Shown: positions 14,921 through 30,985 of the stretch, in pieces
How positions within the stretch are numbered: the stretch's first letter is position 1
Layout: each line of letters opens with the position of its first letter
Assembly: GCA_947088865.1 (NCBI GenBank)
Contig: CAMUHY010000010.1
Coordinates: forward strand, 1 to 64,000
Length of the DNA: 64,000 nt
From: an uncultured Eubacterium sp.
GTDB taxonomy: Bacteria; Bacillota; Clostridia; Lachnospirales; Lachnospiraceae
Direction: 5' to 3'
Notes under the pieces: model-generated
What the model saw: only the letters and a program-made list of their open reading frames with translations
Databases searched by the model: none
Told to the model about the DNA's origin: nothing
Position numbers and translations under genes: made by a program

Positions 14921-15580
14921 ATGAATATAGCAATCATTGAAGATGACTGTAAAATTAGAGAGGAATTAGAAAAATTATTAAAAAGAAATCAATATAAAGT
15001 AATACTTATTGAAAACTTTTCAGCTATTTATGAAGAATTAAATAATTGCAATCCTGATTTAATTTTGCTCGATATAAATCTCCCTTTCCAAAATGGATAT
15101 GAAATTTGTAAACAAATCAAAGCAACTAGGAATATTCCCGTAATATTTGTTACATGCAGAGATACGACGAAAGATGAACTAATGAGTATTAAAGCAGGAG
15201 GTATTGATTTTATCACCAAGCCTTATGACACCATGATTTTGTTAGAAAAAATAAAGAGGGCAATCCATTTATCAAATCCTCAAAACTATAAAGAAATCAG
15301 TAAAAATGGATACACTCTCGATTTACATTTATCCATATTAAAAAAAGATGATATGGAAATAGAATTAACTCGAAATGAATTTAAAATTTTATATTATTTC
15401 TTTATGAGCGGCGACAGAATTATTACAAAAGATGAACTGTTAGATAAATTATGGAATGACAAATATTATTTAGATGAAAATATTTTAATGGTAAATATCA
15501 CCAGATTGCGAAAGAAAGCACGACAGATAGGAATAAACGACTTGATAAAAAATATTAGAGGCGTGGGATTTAAACTATGA
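14921..15580 (+). CDS. OmpR/BceR-family response regulator
   Basis: A 219-residue two-component regulator. The receiver domain (about 1-115) has the acidic pair EDD, phospho-acceptor Asp in LILLDINLP, the Thr switch in IFVTCRD and Lys in ITKPYD. The C-terminal winged helix (about 125-219) has FKILYYFFMSGDRIITKDELLDKLW. It should activate the ABC genes upstream of it in response to peptide antibiotics. The only ribosome-binding site, GGAGG at 14901-14905, is 15 bases from the ATG, unusually far, and lies in repeat R1. Confidence 0.93.
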   Translation: MNIAIIEDDCKIREELEKLLKRNQYKVILIENFSAIYEELNNCNPDLILLDINLPFQNGYEICKQIKATRNIPVIFVTCRDTTKDELMSIKAGGIDFITKPYDTMILLEKIKRAIHLSNPQNYKEISKNGYTLDLHLSILKKDDMEIELTRNEFKILYYFFMSGDRIITKDELLDKLWNDKYYLDENILMVNITRLRKKARQIGINDLIKNIRGVGFKL

Positions 15581-16593
15581 AATTTATAACCTTTTTAGAA
15601 GAAAAAATATTTTTTATCCTATTTCAAACAAGCTTTATATTTATTGTTATAGGAATATTATATTTCGTTAATATGCCCTTATATTATATAGCAATCACTA
15701 CTTTATTACTAATATTGCTGATTGTTTTATACCTATTTATAGAGTATTTATTTACTATAAAAAAATACAAAAAAATTATATCCTTAGTAGATGATTTAGA
15801 AGAAAAATATTTAATAGCTGATATATTAAAAAAACCTTTTCAGTTAGAAAATAAAGCATACTACTATGCGCTAAAACATTCCTGCAAAGCAATGAATGAT
15901 AAGATTGGACAATTGGAAAACGATTTTTTAGACTATCGAGAATATATCGAAAATTTCGTTCACGAAATAAAGACTCCTATTGCAGCATTATCTCTAACTT
16001 TTGACAATAATAAGGATTTTGCCTTAAAAAGTGAAATTGACAAAATTAATGAATTTGTAGAACAAATGCTTTTCTATGCTAGAAGCAATTATACCGAAAA
16101 AGATTATTTTGTCACGAAATTGGAATTAGAAGAGGTTGTTCACAATGTACTATTAAAATATAGACGCTATATATTAAACGAAAAAATACAATTAAATATT
16201 CATCATTTAAATAATAAAATTTATACCGATGAGAAATGGATTGTATTTATACTATCTCAAATTATTCAAAATTGTATAAAATATTTAGATAAATCAAATA
16301 AAAAAATAGAAATATTTAGTCAAAACAATAAAAATAATATTGTTTTAACAATTAAAGATAATGGCTGCGGCATTGACGAATCAGATTTAGACAGAATTTA
16401 TGAAAAAGGATTTACAGGAATGGATAGAAAGAAAAAATATTCCACTGGAATGGGACTTTATTTATCAAATAAATTATGTGAAAAACTTGGTTTAAATTTA
16501 AAAGTCAACTCCATAAAAGGACAATATACAGAAGTGCATATCCTTTTTCCTAAAAATAGCATATACCATAATTTAGCATCATCAGACACATAA
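15577..16593 (+). CDS. BceS-like intramembrane-sensing histidine kinase
   Basis: A 338-residue kinase. Two helices at about 10-30 and 35-55 leave almost no extracellular loop, the mark of intramembrane-sensing kinases that rely on a BceAB transporter. The H-box is ENFVHEIKTPIAAL (phospho-His), the N-box IIQNCIKYL, and the G-boxes DNGCGID and STGMGLYLS. It overlaps the regulator gene by 4 bases (ATGA). It completes the operon ATPase, permease, regulator, kinase, an order in which the transporter precedes the sensors, the reverse of Bacillus. Confidence 0.93.
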   Translation: MKFITFLEEKIFFILFQTSFIFIVIGILYFVNMPLYYIAITTLLLILLIVLYLFIEYLFTIKKYKKIISLVDDLEEKYLIADILKKPFQLENKAYYYALKHSCKAMNDKIGQLENDFLDYREYIENFVHEIKTPIAALSLTFDNNKDFALKSEIDKINEFVEQMLFYARSNYTEKDYFVTKLELEEVVHNVLLKYRRYILNEKIQLNIHHLNNKIYTDEKWIVFILSQIIQNCIKYLDKSNKKIEIFSQNNKNNIVLTIKDNGCGIDESDLDRIYEKGFTGMDRKKKYSTGMGLYLSNKLCEKLGLNLKVNSIKGQYTEVHILFPKNSIYHNLASSDT

Positions 16594-16685: not shown

Positions 16686-17405
16686 TTATTTCTTTTTAAC
16701 CATAATGCCAACAAAAGTAGTAAATGGTTTAATGATACTTTCAAAATATTTTTTATCATTCAATGCAAATTTATGGTTTGTATCAAACCATTCCTGCCAA
16801 GCCAGTTCAAATAATGACATTTCCCAAGTTCTGACTTCTTCAATATCTTCATGCTTTCCAATAATTCGCCTCCAAAAATCGGCGCTTTGAAACATATATG
16901 CTTCTTCTCCTAACCATGTTGTAAGCAGTTCCTCACTTCGTCCATCATATTCATTTTTGATGCCAGGTATTGCAATAAGTACTATTCCTCCACTCTTTAT
17001 ATAAGGCAAAATATGATGAGCAAAAAACTCCTCTTTTCCAGCAAAATAATGATAGGAATCAATGCTAATCAACGCATCAAATAATTCTTTGTCAAAATGC
17101 AGATTGGTGGCATCTTCATGCACAGGAATCAATTTATCCTGCATATTCCAATCTGTAAAACGCTGGCGGTTTTCTTCTTCTGAAATCCATAAATCATTTG
17201 CATATACCGTTGCACCCGTTTCATTTGCTATAAACAAACTGGTTACACCACTTCCACAACCCAAATCCAAAACTAGATTGTCTGATGTATAGTGTAATGG
17301 ATATTCTTCAAGCAATTCATCCAAAAGTCTTAAGCAATTTGGTCCCATCATAAAAGGAACTTTAAAATATTTTTTATAATTTTCACATTTTATAATATGC
17401 TTCAT
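16686..17405 (-). CDS. class I SAM-dependent methyltransferase
   Basis: A 239-residue Rossmann-fold methyltransferase. Motif I is VLDLGCGSGVTSL, the acidic residue after beta 2 is in VYANDLW, motif II is ALISIDSYHYF and motif III is SGGIVLIAIPG. Small-molecule methyltransferases of this shape often act on amines or phenols; the substrate is not evident. GGGGAG lies 9 bases before the ATG. It follows the MutS2-like gene by 21 bases in the same direction, so the two may be co-transcribed behind the same attenuated leader. Confidence 0.88.
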   Translation of the reverse strand: MKHIIKCENYKKYFKVPFMMGPNCLRLLDELLEEYPLHYTSDNLVLDLGCGSGVTSLFIANETGATVYANDLWISEEENRQRFTDWNMQDKLIPVHEDATNLHFDKELFDALISIDSYHYFAGKEEFFAHHILPYIKSGGIVLIAIPGIKNEYDGRSEELLTTWLGEEAYMFQSADFWRRIIGKHEDIEEVRTWEMSLFELAWQEWFDTNHKFALNDKKYFESIIKPFTTFVGIMVKKK

Positions 17406-17426: not shown

Positions 17427-19328
17427 TTATTCATTTAACTCTATCACAGCATCCGTATATTTTCTTTGCATATCATGCCGCTTTTTTCGATTTTCAACTG
17501 TCTCAAATAAAATTGAAAAATCATAATCCTCTGGATATAGCTGAGCTGCTGCCACATGCAGCTTTACCCGCTTATGATTAATCCAAATTTTTTTATCTGG
17601 CAGCTGCACTCGTAACACACCTTTTTCATTGATTGGCACACATACTATTCCTATCTTTTTTTCAGGATAAACCATTACACTATCACCTATTTTATACTTG
17701 CTACTAAGGTCTGCATTATTCTTTCCAATTTTAGCTTTTGAAATCTTAGTCGTATTCTTTTTAATAATATTACTTTCTGACTTTTGAAATACATAAGACT
17801 TTACAGCTTCTTCACCATACGCAACGCTAATTGCCACCTTCAACATTCTATTTGGCATTCCCAGTCTGTCTGCAATATAAAATGCACAGCTTTCGCCTGC
17901 TTCCCCAATTATCATTTGATAAGTAGGTCTTAGCGTTTCTTTGTCAAAGGTCATTCTTGCATTGATAATATTCTCTGTCTTAGCTGCATATTCTTTTACT
18001 TCAGGATAATGCGTTGTCACCAAGAAAAGAGCATTGCTTTTTCTAAGTTCTTCTAAAATTGCAATTGCAATTCCCATGCCTTCTGTGGGGTCTGTTCCAG
18101 AACCCAATTCATCCATTATAACAAAACTATACTTATTTGCTTCACTTAATACTTCCAGCACATTAGTTATATGAGCGGAAAATGTAGAAAGATTTTCTGA
18201 AAGATTCTGCCCATCTCCAATATCACATAAATATGAACTATTCATACATATATCTGCCTGCTTGCATGTCACATGCAATCCACACTGCGCCATAATGCAA
18301 TTCAGCATAACGGTTTTAATTGCTACTGTTTTCCCTCCTGTATTTGGTCCTGTTATAACAATACCATGTATTTTTTCACCTATTTCAAACTGCAATGGCA
18401 CTGCTATTGATTTATCCATCAGCGGATGCCGTGCTTCTGTTAATTTAATTTTGCGTTCTGTGTTAATTGTTGGTTCTATTGCATCCATGTCAATACTTAA
18501 TTTACCTTTAGAAAAGATAAAATCCAACTTTTCAATCATTGCCAAATTTTCTTTTAACACAGGCGAGACCTGCGAAACAAAAGCTGATAAAGTATATAAA
18601 ATACGATATACTTCATTTTCTTCATCTATTTTTAGCAATTGCAATTCCTCATAATACCTTGAAACACTTGATGGTTCTATAAAAAGAGTATTACCCGTAG
18701 AAGACTTGTCAATAATGCTGCCAGCTATCTTCAATTTATATTCTTTTTTTACTGGAAGACATATTCGCCCATTTCTAAATGTACAATAATTATCTGCCAT
18801 ACAATCCTTATAAGAACGAAGGATTTGTTCTGCTTTATGTTTCATCTGTTCTTCACATTTTATCATCTGATTTCGTATTTGACCTAATTCCTTTGAAGCA
18901 TAATTATCCACCGTACTATTCCGAATGATGTGGCAAATTTCTTCATGTAATTCTGAAATAGAATCTAAATTTTCATTATAATAAGCTAAAGAATTATTAT
19001 ATATTTCCCCTCTTTTTAAATAATCTTTCAGCCGTTTTATCGCAATCAAAACTTTTTCTACTCGTTCTAACTGATACGGTGTTAAACAATCCCCTTTTTC
19101 AGCAATCAATATAATATTTTTCATTTCGGAAACATTTTGCAATGGTGGTGTTCCTATTTTTTCAATCAAATCTTTTGCATTGGTTGTGTCACTTATCTGT
19201 TTTCTCAATTCATTCTCAGAAAAATACAATGAAACTTCTTTAATTTTTTCTTTCGCCCAATCTGTAACAGCTAAATCAGCCCATATCTCTTTGACTTTGT
19301 TAAATTCAATTTGTTTATCAATATTCAT
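17427..19328 (-). CDS. MutS2-like ATPase lacking the Smr nuclease domain
   Basis: A 633-residue protein of the MutS2 (COG1193) type. It has an N-terminal lever/clamp region (about 1-290), Walker A GPNTGGKT (327-334), Walker B VIMDELGSGTDP (about 403-414), and a KOW-like beta segment (about 543-585, YKIGDSVMVYPEKKIGIV). Typical MutS2 is ~780 residues and ends in an Smr domain; here the protein stops ~45 residues after the KOW-like part and no Smr motif is present. MutS2/RqcU in Bacillus acts on collided ribosomes, so a ribosome-linked role is possible. The gene lies behind a leader with small ORFs and two terminators. Confidence 0.88.
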   Translation of the reverse strand: MNIDKQIEFNKVKEIWADLAVTDWAKEKIKEVSLYFSENELRKQISDTTNAKDLIEKIGTPPLQNVSEMKNIILIAEKGDCLTPYQLERVEKVLIAIKRLKDYLKRGEIYNNSLAYYNENLDSISELHEEICHIIRNSTVDNYASKELGQIRNQMIKCEEQMKHKAEQILRSYKDCMADNYCTFRNGRICLPVKKEYKLKIAGSIIDKSSTGNTLFIEPSSVSRYYEELQLLKIDEENEVYRILYTLSAFVSQVSPVLKENLAMIEKLDFIFSKGKLSIDMDAIEPTINTERKIKLTEARHPLMDKSIAVPLQFEIGEKIHGIVITGPNTGGKTVAIKTVMLNCIMAQCGLHVTCKQADICMNSSYLCDIGDGQNLSENLSTFSAHITNVLEVLSEANKYSFVIMDELGSGTDPTEGMGIAIAILEELRKSNALFLVTTHYPEVKEYAAKTENIINARMTFDKETLRPTYQMIIGEAGESCAFYIADRLGMPNRMLKVAISVAYGEEAVKSYVFQKSESNIIKKNTTKISKAKIGKNNADLSSKYKIGDSVMVYPEKKIGIVCVPINEKGVLRVQLPDKKIWINHKRVKLHVAAAQLYPEDYDFSILFETVENRKKRHDMQRKYTDAVIELNE

Positions 19329-19370
19329 TTTTCTTATCCTTTCACTTTAAATTATAATATCGCCTTAAAC

Positions 19371-19419
19371 GCAAAAAAGACCATAGATACCTTAAATGCC
19401 TTAAGATACTATGGTCTTT
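19371..19419 (-). terminator. gene-proximal attenuator of the MutS2-like gene
   Basis: On the minus strand AAAGACCATAG pairs with CTATGGTCTTT (19376-19386 with 19409-19419). There is an inner CTTAA/TTAAG stem, and the hairpin is followed by TTTTTT. It lies 43 bases before the MutS2-like start and must be read through for expression. Confidence 0.85.
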
Positions 19420-19498
19420 ATATCTCTATGATTTTATATATTTCATAAACAAGCAAGAAACAATTTTTCATCGTACACTCCGTGCACTTTAGCCGCAT
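19418..19498 (-). CDS. leader small ORF 3 (26 codons)
   Basis: It reads MRLKCTECTM, then KNCFLLVYEIYKIIEI. AGAGG lies 4 bases before ATG 19498. An internal ATG preceded by CGGAG would give a 17-residue version. Its stop codon overlaps the first bases of the gene-proximal terminator stem, so a ribosome near its end would block the hairpin. Coding status is inferred only from position and ribosome-binding sites. Confidence 0.4.
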   Translation of the reverse strand: MRLKCTECTMKNCFLLVYEIYKIIEI

Positions 19499-19554
19499 AT
19501 TTCCTCTATATAAGGCTGCACAGAATGTTCTTGTTCTTTATATCTCAAAAACAT
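19489..19554 (-). CDS. leader small ORF 2 (21 codons)
   Basis: It reads MFLRYKEQEHSVQPYIEEICG and overlaps ORF 3 by 10 bases in another frame. No good ribosome-binding site precedes ATG 19554. It begins shortly after the distal terminator. Weakly supported as a translated peptide. Confidence 0.22.
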   Translation of the reverse strand: MFLRYKEQEHSVQPYIEEICG

Positions 19555-19570
19555 AGAAATTTCTATAAAA

Positions 19571-19600
19571 TAAAAAAAGCATGACCATACAGCCATGCTT
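19571..19600 (-). terminator. distal attenuator in the MutS2-like leader
   Basis: AAGCATG and CATGCTT (19577-19600) form a stem followed on the minus strand by TTTTTTTATTTT. It lies between leader ORF 1 and the later leader ORFs. It is the first of two tandem terminators on the transcript. Confidence 0.85.
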
Positions 19601-19720
19601 ATATCATCTATGAAATATATACCACAATATTAAGCAATTGTAAGGCGAAAACGTTGACAATATAATTTGCCAACAAATGGGCAGACTCCTAGCGTAAGCT
19701 AAAAATCACCCTTGCACTAT

Positions 19721-19759
19721 TTATTTTGCAATTTTCTCCATTACAATAACACTTAACAT
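19721..19759 (-). CDS. leader peptide (12 codons) with perfect ribosome-binding site
   Basis: It reads MLSVIVMEKIAK. AGGAGGA at 19766-19772 is 6 bases before the ATG, and the ORF starts only ~20 bases after the predicted transcript start. This is the best-supported leader ORF. Its early position, short length and downstream terminators match the layout of ribosome-mediated attenuation leaders of antibiotic-response genes. No homologue is claimed. Confidence 0.6.
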   Translation of the reverse strand: MLSVIVMEKIAK

Positions 19760-19786
19760 CAACAATCCTCCTAAAAATTTTTATCT

Positions 19787-19815
19787 ATTGTACATTATCT
19801 CACACTCTTGGTCAA
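19787..19815 (-). promoter_or_regulatory. sigma-A promoter of the MutS2-like leader
   Basis: TTGACC (19810-19815) and TACAAT (19787-19792) are 17 bases apart on the minus strand. The predicted start near 19779 gives a ~450-nt leader before the MutS2-like gene. Confidence 0.8.
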
Positions 19816-19853: not shown

Positions 19854-20810
19854 TTATCGATTCACTTGTTCCATCACATTTTTTCGCATAAAAAAGCTAA
19901 TTCCCAGACAGTCAATAATGATTCCTGACGTGTCCAATTCATTTACAAGCTGCATCAAATCATTAAATGTATATACCATATGTTCTTGATGTTCCTTATA
20001 ACACTTGTTCATCTCATATCCATCTGTAAATGCCGGCAATGCAATAACCGTTTCACCTTCTTGTTTTTCGGCAACTCGCTGTGTCACATCAATAAATGGA
20101 AGCTGTATTTCGACTTCCTCCTCATTTTCATTCTTGATACATGGCACCATAAATTCACATTCTAACATACTCTGGAACATGAAATCTTCCCTTTGCTTAA
20201 TCATACTGATTCGTTCTTTTACAGGCGCTTGTTTTCTCAATTCCTGAAAATAATCAATCATAGCTGCTGAACATGCAGGATTTGTCATATAGTCATCGCT
20301 ATAAAAATTATCATAAGAATATATATCTTCTCTATCAACAACAAAAGGTTCAGATTTTCCATCCATAAAACGTATTCTTTTATAACCATTGCGATACATA
20401 TGTCCGACTTCCATCTTAAACGTATCTTGGTCAAGACCGCCAAATACAACCCTATAACCAGCCATATTTAATTTCTTCTGTATACTTTGATTTTCTGAAT
20501 AGTTATATAAGATAATTAAATCTCTATCCAACATATATGGATACCCTGTTAAATCACTGTAAGCTATCCATAATCGGTCTGTATTTTTAATCTTTTGTAT
20601 CGCAATTGGATAGTATCGATTAATCATTTCGTTAAAAAAGCCTATATCATTTTCATTGTTTTTATCTTGTGCCTCTTTTAAGCATTTTGGCAAAATAACA
20701 TTAACCAAATAAATACAATCAGCAAGCGGCAGCCTTGATACCATTGTAAGTCCACAATCTTTGTCCTGTGTTATATGCCTTAATAAATCATTTGCTCTTT
20801 TAGCATCCAT
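19854..20810 (-). CDS. hypothetical protein, possibly SseB-like
   Basis: A 318-residue soluble protein. The segment DRLWIAYSDLTGYPYMLDRDLIILYNYSEN with the later YRVVFGGLDQ resembles SseB-type domains in spacing, but the match is loose and no catalytic motif is visible. The N-terminal ~75 residues are helical (VNVILPKCLKEAQDKNNEND). GAGG lies 5 bases before the ATG. It follows carB by 36 bases in the same direction and may be transcribed with carAB. No terminator separates its end from the next promoter. Confidence 0.7.
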   Translation of the reverse strand: MDAKRANDLLRHITQDKDCGLTMVSRLPLADCIYLVNVILPKCLKEAQDKNNENDIGFFNEMINRYYPIAIQKIKNTDRLWIAYSDLTGYPYMLDRDLIILYNYSENQSIQKKLNMAGYRVVFGGLDQDTFKMEVGHMYRNGYKRIRFMDGKSEPFVVDREDIYSYDNFYSDDYMTNPACSAAMIDYFQELRKQAPVKERISMIKQREDFMFQSMLECEFMVPCIKNENEEEVEIQLPFIDVTQRVAEKQEGETVIALPAFTDGYEMNKCYKEHQEHMVYTFNDLMQLVNELDTSGIIIDCLGISFFMRKNVMEQVNR

Positions 20811-30757: not shown

Positions 30758-30785
30758 AAAATCCATCAACTATAACAATATATAG

Positions 30786-30886
30786 CCATGTTCATTCTTC
30801 CTACGACGGCATTATCCGCATCAGGTATATGGGTCGGATTGCTCCCTCTCAGCCATTTACTATAAAATATAGCAGGCTCCCCAGAA
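30786..30886 (-). ncRNA. TPP riboswitch (THI element)
   Basis: The minus strand carries the diagnostic sequence CTGAGAGGG, then ACCTGATGCGGATAATGCC, then CGTAGGAA, with closing helix GGGGAGCCTGC. It senses thiamine pyrophosphate and represses thiC. The stretch 30652-30985 otherwise holds only the terminator and the thiC leader. Confidence 0.97.
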
Positions 30887-30985
30887 TATTTAATTTATTT
30901 TTATATTCAACTTTCTTCAAACATAATTATATAATTATTGCAATACACTTATTTTTTATACCATATTTACACGAATCCTGTAAAT

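Follow-up and report, generated by a model that had tools for sequence, protein, structure and literature searches.

Why should a MutS2-like ATPase without an SMR domain lie behind a long leader that carries a short open reading frame (ORF) and two intrinsic terminators? The question arises from the minus strand of a 64,000-nucleotide stretch of DNA, referred to here as the window, from an uncultured Eubacterium sp. of the Lachnospiraceae. A sequence-only reading of this DNA had likened the layout to that of ribosome-sensing attenuation leaders, and comparison with relatives backs a conserved, translated-looking leader ORF, while the alternative-structure logic was examined in silico. The leader is conserved, its ORF is retained and complementary to a downstream segment (D), the leader occurs together with the SMR-less gene across genomes, and the protein has the domain content described below. 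In our view, the region likely works by ribosome-mediated transcription attenuation, a mode of regulation that is itself already known.

A MutS2 paralogue without the SMR domain

The gene at 17427..19328 (minus strand) encodes a 633-residue protein with a lever/clamp region, an ATPase domain, a KOW-like domain and a diagnostic C-terminal tail. It matches TIGR01069 (MutS2) with 533.7 bits against a cut-off of 400, though over model positions 5 to 516 of 790 only. Both Pfam and an alignment that set the window protein beside 7 full-length MutS2 proteins and 30 other relatives without SMR indicated that the SMR domain is absent, and we therefore file the protein as a paralogue rather than as MutS2 proper; together with the span of the family model, these results bear out the SMR-less MutS2-like gene proposed earlier. 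The window row of the alignment retains the ATPase motifs GPNTGGKT and MDELGSGTDP, which we take to be Walker A and B. Relative to full-length MutS2, ~90 residues between the ATPase and KOW regions are gone, and a conserved tail, ELYPxDYDFSIIFDTVENRKxRHxMxRKY, replaces SMR. Since a Pfam KOW match is lacking, the KOW-like domain was assigned by the alignment and the predicted model only; the model (mean pLDDT, 86) has five strands at residues 550 to 592, in a block with pLDDT values of 84 to 88 from residue 551.

In structure, the model came closest to MutS2 of B. subtilis (entries 9a5o and 7qv3, the latter a collided-disome complex) and of Thermotoga maritima, and an unrooted tree separated the SMR-less type from full-length MutS2 with a support of 100/100. 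KamC, the lysine 5,6-aminomutase reactivase ATPase, was rejected as an identity at 214.5 bits, below its cut-off of 300. The same genome carries an ordinary full-length MutS2 (an open frame of 801 amino acids on contig G000:C2) that is 35% identical to the window protein. This second MutS2 copy beside a housekeeping splitter, behind a putative attenuator, is the arrangement that marks an HflXr-type paralogue.

The name of the family model, endonuclease MutS2, and the MutS fold would also suit a protein that acts on DNA in recombination or repair, with the leader merely tying its synthesis to translation stress. We regard this explanation as improbable, given that the only Pfam match is MutS_V, the ATPase domain, with no mismatch-recognition domain found, that SMR, to which the excerpted text of PMC3200294 assigns the endonuclease role in MutS2, is missing here, and that the closest solved chains by sequence are likewise MutS2 entries, including 7qv3.

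Architecture of the leader

All leader elements lie on the minus strand. The putative promoter (19787..19815) reads TTGACC-17 bp-TACAAT and matches at 10 of 12 positions; promoter-like matches in our scan were at chance level (6 found versus 8.2 expected), but CTTGAC and TATAAT turn up again at these positions in the profile built from relatives' leaders. A gene for a protein with an SseB N-terminal domain (19854-20810, minus strand) lies just upstream. The predicted 12-codon ORF with a perfect ribosome-binding site was confirmed as a Shine-Dalgarno (SD) sequence, AGGAGG, at 19767..19772, followed by MLSVIVMEKIAK and a stop codon at 19721..19759.

Downstream of the ORF, folding places hairpin P1 (GGG...CCC; 19679..19711), in which AGTCTGCCC is largely conserved, and RNAalifold places hairpin P2 (19653..19674), which shows compensatory changes among relatives, e.g., UA, CG and UG at the same pairs. 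Segment D (UUUUCGCCUUACAAUUGCUUAAUAUUGUGG; 19621..19652) is complementary to the leader ORF. The 3' side of a proposed antiterminator (19597..19607) pairs in silico with 19635-19624 and overlaps the foot of the first terminator, T1 (19577..19600), a scan-detected hairpin that also shows compensatory changes. The second terminator, T2 (19379..19416), is a long GACCATAG... hairpin with a U tract; it is absent from the scan's list, yet it is predicted by folding, and hairpins like it are present in many leaders. Two terminators had been expected before the MutS2-like gene, and two are found, T1 by the scan and T2 by the fold. The whole leader folds far better than shuffled sequences (-136.8 versus a shuffle mean of -94 kcal/mol; z = -7.7; 100 shuffles).

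Several side observations concern the terminators. In the leader alignment, the T1 sequence, including its loop (CATGGCTGTATGGTCATG; 19600-19577), is unusually conserved, which exceeds what a plain terminator needs. An AAGGCGA motif after T2 (19360..19366) is complementary to UCGCCUU in D (19648-19642). AAGGCGA or GUAAGGC, complementary to D, lies directly past T2 in several leaders, and a motif of the AAGGCGA type, in any of the six spellings searched, occurs in 28 of 76 upstream regions of relatives. Pairing of these motifs with D may perhaps provide a further control step, by analogy with vmlR read-through transcripts.

The leader and its ORF are conserved among relatives

Bacterial genome contigs yielded 80 relatives of the MutS2-like protein, 64 to 86% identical in the best segment. 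A covariance model built from 47 leaders was used to search 78 of these loci (L035 and L056 were left out), 45 of which were training loci. The leader was found at an E value of ≤1e-3 in 72 of the 78 loci, or 27 of 33 when training loci were excluded; L074, L106 and L114 gave weaker matches, and L053, L066 and L082 gave none. When 17 SMR-less loci were also searched, matches were obtained in L005 (a training row) and L006, and the model missed all 15 of the more distant loci (L007-L024), the best E value being 0.05 for L016. Within 450 nt upstream of MutS2-like genes, a terminator-like hairpin was present on the sense strand in 57 of 73 regions versus 6 of 73 on the antisense strand; such a hairpin preceded full-length mutS2 in 1 of 10 regions.

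The short ORF is conserved, too. The start codon and an in-frame stop occupy the same alignment columns in 51 of 52 leaders, the exception, L104, being offset by 8 nt in the alignment. The start varies between ATG and TTG and the stop among TAA, TGA and TAG, and codon-length deletions occur within the ORF in L045 and L005. Hydrophobic residues prevail at codons 2 and 4 to 6, and some leaders encode six residues only (MLSVVK or MLSVVM). Among single-base codon variants, 7 of 19 possible silent changes and 32 of 80 possible replacing changes were seen; since silent changes are not in excess, there is no sign of selection on the exact peptide. The sequence-only reading had also pointed to a further ORF at 19498-19418. 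This ORF exists and ends beside T2, but an ORF of at least 14 codons ending at T2 was present in just 12 of 54 leaders with a T2-like start, which rules it out as a conserved element.

The strong constraint at the nucleotide level and the lack of excess silent change could instead reflect a structured RNA or riboswitch that works independently of translation, with a fortuitous ORF conserved through its pairing with D. Such an RNA is very improbable, since the SD, start, reading frame and stop (whichever of the three stop codons is used) keep their alignment column in 51 of 52 leaders, since deletions within the ORF are of codon length, and since divergent leaders retain a short ORF that starts, by eye, like ML[S/I][V/A]. 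Rfam also gives no gathering-score match in the leader, and Rfam-family and riboswitch readings of it were set aside. The sole Rfam match in the window is a TPP riboswitch (RF00059; 63.5 bits) at 30781-30893 (minus strand).

Upstream regions of MutS2-like genes that the model missed were inspected by eye; in 16 of 18, an SD-like stretch is followed by a short ORF, most often one that begins ML[S/I/R][V/A] or similar; no such ORF was seen in L203, which has an ABC gene upstream, or in L209. Reading of individual records, without statistics, revealed similar short ORFs and terminators ahead of SMR-less genes in Cytobacillus (MLGVVLN) and in phage-labelled records from Listeria (MSVAGI) and Enterococcus faecalis (MSVVGI). 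In the Paenibacillus relatives L245 and L246, terminators were identified, with no clear leader ORF.

Folding of a transcription intermediate suggests a switch

Complementarity between the ORF and D is on average stronger within leaders than between them. The duplex between the ORF and D (UUUUCGCCUUACAAUUGCUUAAUAU) had a native mean of -20.8 kcal/mol across 77 leaders, compared with -18.7 kcal/mol for swapped D segments (P = 3e-7, the native duplex being the more stable in 58 of 77) and -15.7 kcal/mol for shuffled ones. Exchanging partners did not weaken the antiterminator duplex by itself (P = 0.27), and shuffling weakened it slightly (P = 0.036). At equilibrium with a complete T1, masking the ORF barely mattered (0.91 to 0.89, with 0.90 under the control mask; n = 85), and a set of 111 leaders behaved much the same, with few exceptions, e.g., L195 and L198. 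A switch operating on T1 at equilibrium was not seen, T1 being kept whether the ORF was masked or not.

The result differed for a transcription intermediate that contains the 5' arm of T1 without its 3' arm, a test that was run only after the equilibrium and swapped-duplex tests had given null results. In this intermediate, D paired with the first six T1 bases at 0.14 when the ORF was left open and at 0.55 when it was masked, and the rise exceeded 0.2 in 54 of 78 leaders, compared with 1 of 78 under the control mask. Shuffled 3' segments reached 0.29, and the native value was higher in 61 of 78 leaders (P = 2e-10); since the leaders are related, these P values overstate their independence. These predicted folds are consistent with a switch among an anti-antiterminator, an antiterminator and T1.

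In L197, L198 and L200, the T2 hairpin contains UUAAGCGU, identical to letters at the ORF start, so that the hairpin and the ORF are both potential partners for D. Masking the ORF lowered T2 from 0.90 to 0.05 in L198; L197 and L200 hardly changed.

The leader travels with the SMR-less gene and a set of partner genes

Among 397 genomes of the family, the covariance model matched 33, at 34 places. The SMR-less gene is present in ~79 of them, namely, 78 at an E value of ≤1e-160 plus a contig-end fragment in G027, with two weaker candidates (G135 and G142) left out of the count. All 33 leader-positive genomes carry the SMR-less gene (hypergeometric P = 1.1e-26), a count that is partly circular because the leaders of 7 of the 33 had trained the model; without the training genomes, the association holds in 26 of 26 (P = 1.1e-21, a value inflated by shared ancestry). 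The next gene at the 34 places is MutS2-like in 28, a methyltransferase followed by a MutS2-like gene in 1 (G352), an ABC exporter in 2 (G406:C104 and G379), a GNAT acetyltransferase in 2 (G189 and, with a partial match, G224) and a contig end in 1 (G240); the calls for G406:C10 and G143 rest on coordinates only. The match on G224:C27 is a 77-nt partial one before the GNAT gene and may be either chance or a decayed leader.

In an order-level sample, the leader was found in 14 of 392 genomes, 8 of them already among the 33. This sample adds leaders before ABC exporters in G560 and G062 (two other families), G595 and G711, and a methyltransferase-MutS2 operon behind the leader in G681. A GNAT gene lies under the leader in G218, a genome outside the ~79 carriers of the SMR-less gene. 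As far as the stretches were read, the exporters of G560, G062, G595 and G406:C104 are not followed by a MutS2-like gene.

A search for an SD followed by ATGTTAAGYGT matched 33 of the 397 genomes at 35 places, and about half of these matches may be chance, since the backward control pattern matched 18 genomes. Known leaders account for 10 of the 35 places. A further 20 were inspected, of which 2 are leaders (L217, before a GNAT gene, and L238, before the ABC ATPase gene) and the majority of the remainder mark where ordinary genes begin. One place, L214 (G311:C173), is a tandem repeat with ~43-bp units containing GAGGTTTTTATGTTAAGCGTGAAGG, an unrelated chance match.

An origin on mobile elements was rejected, given that the leader had no BLAST match at an E value of ≤0.01 in plasmid or phage collections and that a scan of viral contigs found no close relatives. 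Distant SMR-less relatives sit in large replicons and in phage-labelled records, the latter of which look like host DNA.

In the window, a class I SAM methyltransferase gene (16686..17405, minus strand) starts 21 nt after the MutS2-like gene and is likely cotranscribed with it. Its product is nearest, weakly, to solved small-molecule methyltransferases. The suggestion that it shares the leader is strengthened by the operons elsewhere in which leader, methyltransferase and MutS2-like gene follow one another. A response regulator and histidine kinase pair at 14921-16593 (plus strand) converges on the methyltransferase gene; the kinase is nearest to SapS, under the cut-off.

At 8 of the 80 loci of the relatives (L063, L066, L068, L069, L078, L090, L095 and L099), the MutS2-like gene is immediately preceded by genes for an ABC ATPase and two permeases, and the leader precedes the exporter in all of these except L066; L082, which is cut short, shows the last permease only. 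The exporter ATPase is DrrA-like, under the cut-off, and one permease matches ABC2_membrane_6. The MutS2-like gene of L014 overlaps at its end with an ABC ATPase gene that looks similar on visual inspection. GNAT genes, whose products match acetyltransferase domains, follow the MutS2-like gene in 7 of 80 loci and precede it, behind the leader, in L096. Relatives of the window methyltransferase gene follow the MutS2-like gene in 4 of 80, twice after a GNAT gene. These partner modules are a minority, most of the 80 loci having none of them. Judging from sequence, an antibiotic response would be expected to look like this, with one leader shared by a ribosome-acting ATPase, an exporter and two enzymes, an acetyltransferase and a methyltransferase.

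The leader might instead sense slow translation in general, whether from amino acid or tRNA shortage, cold or a block in initiation, with the MutS2-like protein as a general rescue factor. Excerpted reports make this conceivable: rare codons in bmrB alter basal read-through in B. subtilis (PMC4191407), and full-length MutS2 serves general rescue (PMC10897456 and PMC11633108). General sensing is nonetheless unlikely, since the leader ORF has no run of a single regulatory amino acid and since an exporter, a GNAT protein and a methyltransferase under the same leader would be an odd set for starvation.

A model for the leader and its relation to known systems

Under the attenuator reading, a ribosome would translate the 12-codon ORF and depart, leaving the ORF RNA to pair with D as an anti-antiterminator. 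With D sequestered, the foot of T1 would be out of its reach, and T1, with T2 as a backup, would stop transcription. A translation inhibitor would probably stall the ribosome at the early hydrophobic codons and release D, and free D would then bind the 5' foot of T1 as an antiterminator and allow RNA polymerase to read through. The SMR-less paralogue would thus be produced on demand only. Lacking the SMR collision sensor, it would probably rely on its ATPase and KOW-like domain to split inhibited ribosomes or to clear them. The drug itself is probably the target of the methyltransferase presumably cotranscribed here and, at other loci, of the acetyltransferase or ABC exporter.

Taken together, the findings suggest a translation-inhibitor response that employs a paralogue of a ribosome splitter, in parallel with HflXr. 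We propose, tentatively and as a reading that could about as easily be wrong, that the locus represents an inducible ribosome-protection class, 'MutS2r', in which an ATPase paralogue without collision sensing clears drug-stalled ribosomes, is induced by leader-peptide stalling and, across Firmicutes, belongs to modular cassettes under one leader family whose other members are an ABC exporter, a methyltransferase and an acetyltransferase. The excerpted text of PMC10897456 reports that stalled ribosomes are split by B. subtilis MutS2, that losing the protein or mutating its Walker B motif causes erythromycin sensitivity, and that SMR and KOW mutants show modest sensitivity only. The same excerpts report that ΔSMR MutS2 binds ribosomes much less well, which weighs against the proposed explanation.

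If the proposal is true, a MutS2-based route of ribosome clearing, seen in gut Lachnospiraceae, would stand beside HflXr and target protection by ABC-F factors, and SMR-less relatives also occur in DNA labelled as phages of Listeria and E. faecalis. The system makes it possible to test whether the SMR collision sensor is dispensable for action of the MutS2 ATPase/KOW module on ribosomes, and the leader is a ready probe for more undescribed genes that respond to translation inhibitors. We did not find this leader family, its link to SMR-less MutS2 or this set of modules in open-licence PMC papers; the portions consulted of a mutS2 survey (PMC11633108) do not separate SMR-less copies, and those of an E. 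faecalis transcript map (PMC7724050) do not mention mutS.

Several described systems resemble parts of the locus, as far as excerpts of the reports go. Like MutS2/RqcU of B. subtilis (PMC10897456), the window protein has a lever, a clamp, an ABC ATPase with Walker motifs and a KOW-like domain, but it lacks SMR and the segment between ATPase and KOW and has its own tail instead. The B. subtilis vmlR leader (PMC9226507) has an upstream ORF within an anti-antiterminator, followed by an antiterminator and an intrinsic terminator, the order that we propose for the present leader; vmlR encodes an ABC-F factor, whereas the leader described here has two terminators and governs other genes. The msrDL leader peptide MYLIFM (PMC10314930) is also a very short hydrophobic peptide before an intrinsic terminator, a resemblance in layout and peptide type rather than in sequence, with stalling being proposed for the leader studied here. 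In the excerpts of PMC6310831, HflXr of Listeria monocytogenes (lmo0762) is a splitter homologue under a short-ORF transcription attenuator that responds to ribosome-targeting drugs, a response that we infer for the present leader, and its switching logic is akin to that of vmlR. HflXr is an HflX GTPase, in contrast to the MutS2 ATPase encoded here, and its leader peptide has an RLR motif that MLSVIVMEKIAK does not; among attenuator-controlled homologues of ribosome splitters, it is nevertheless the closest precedent.
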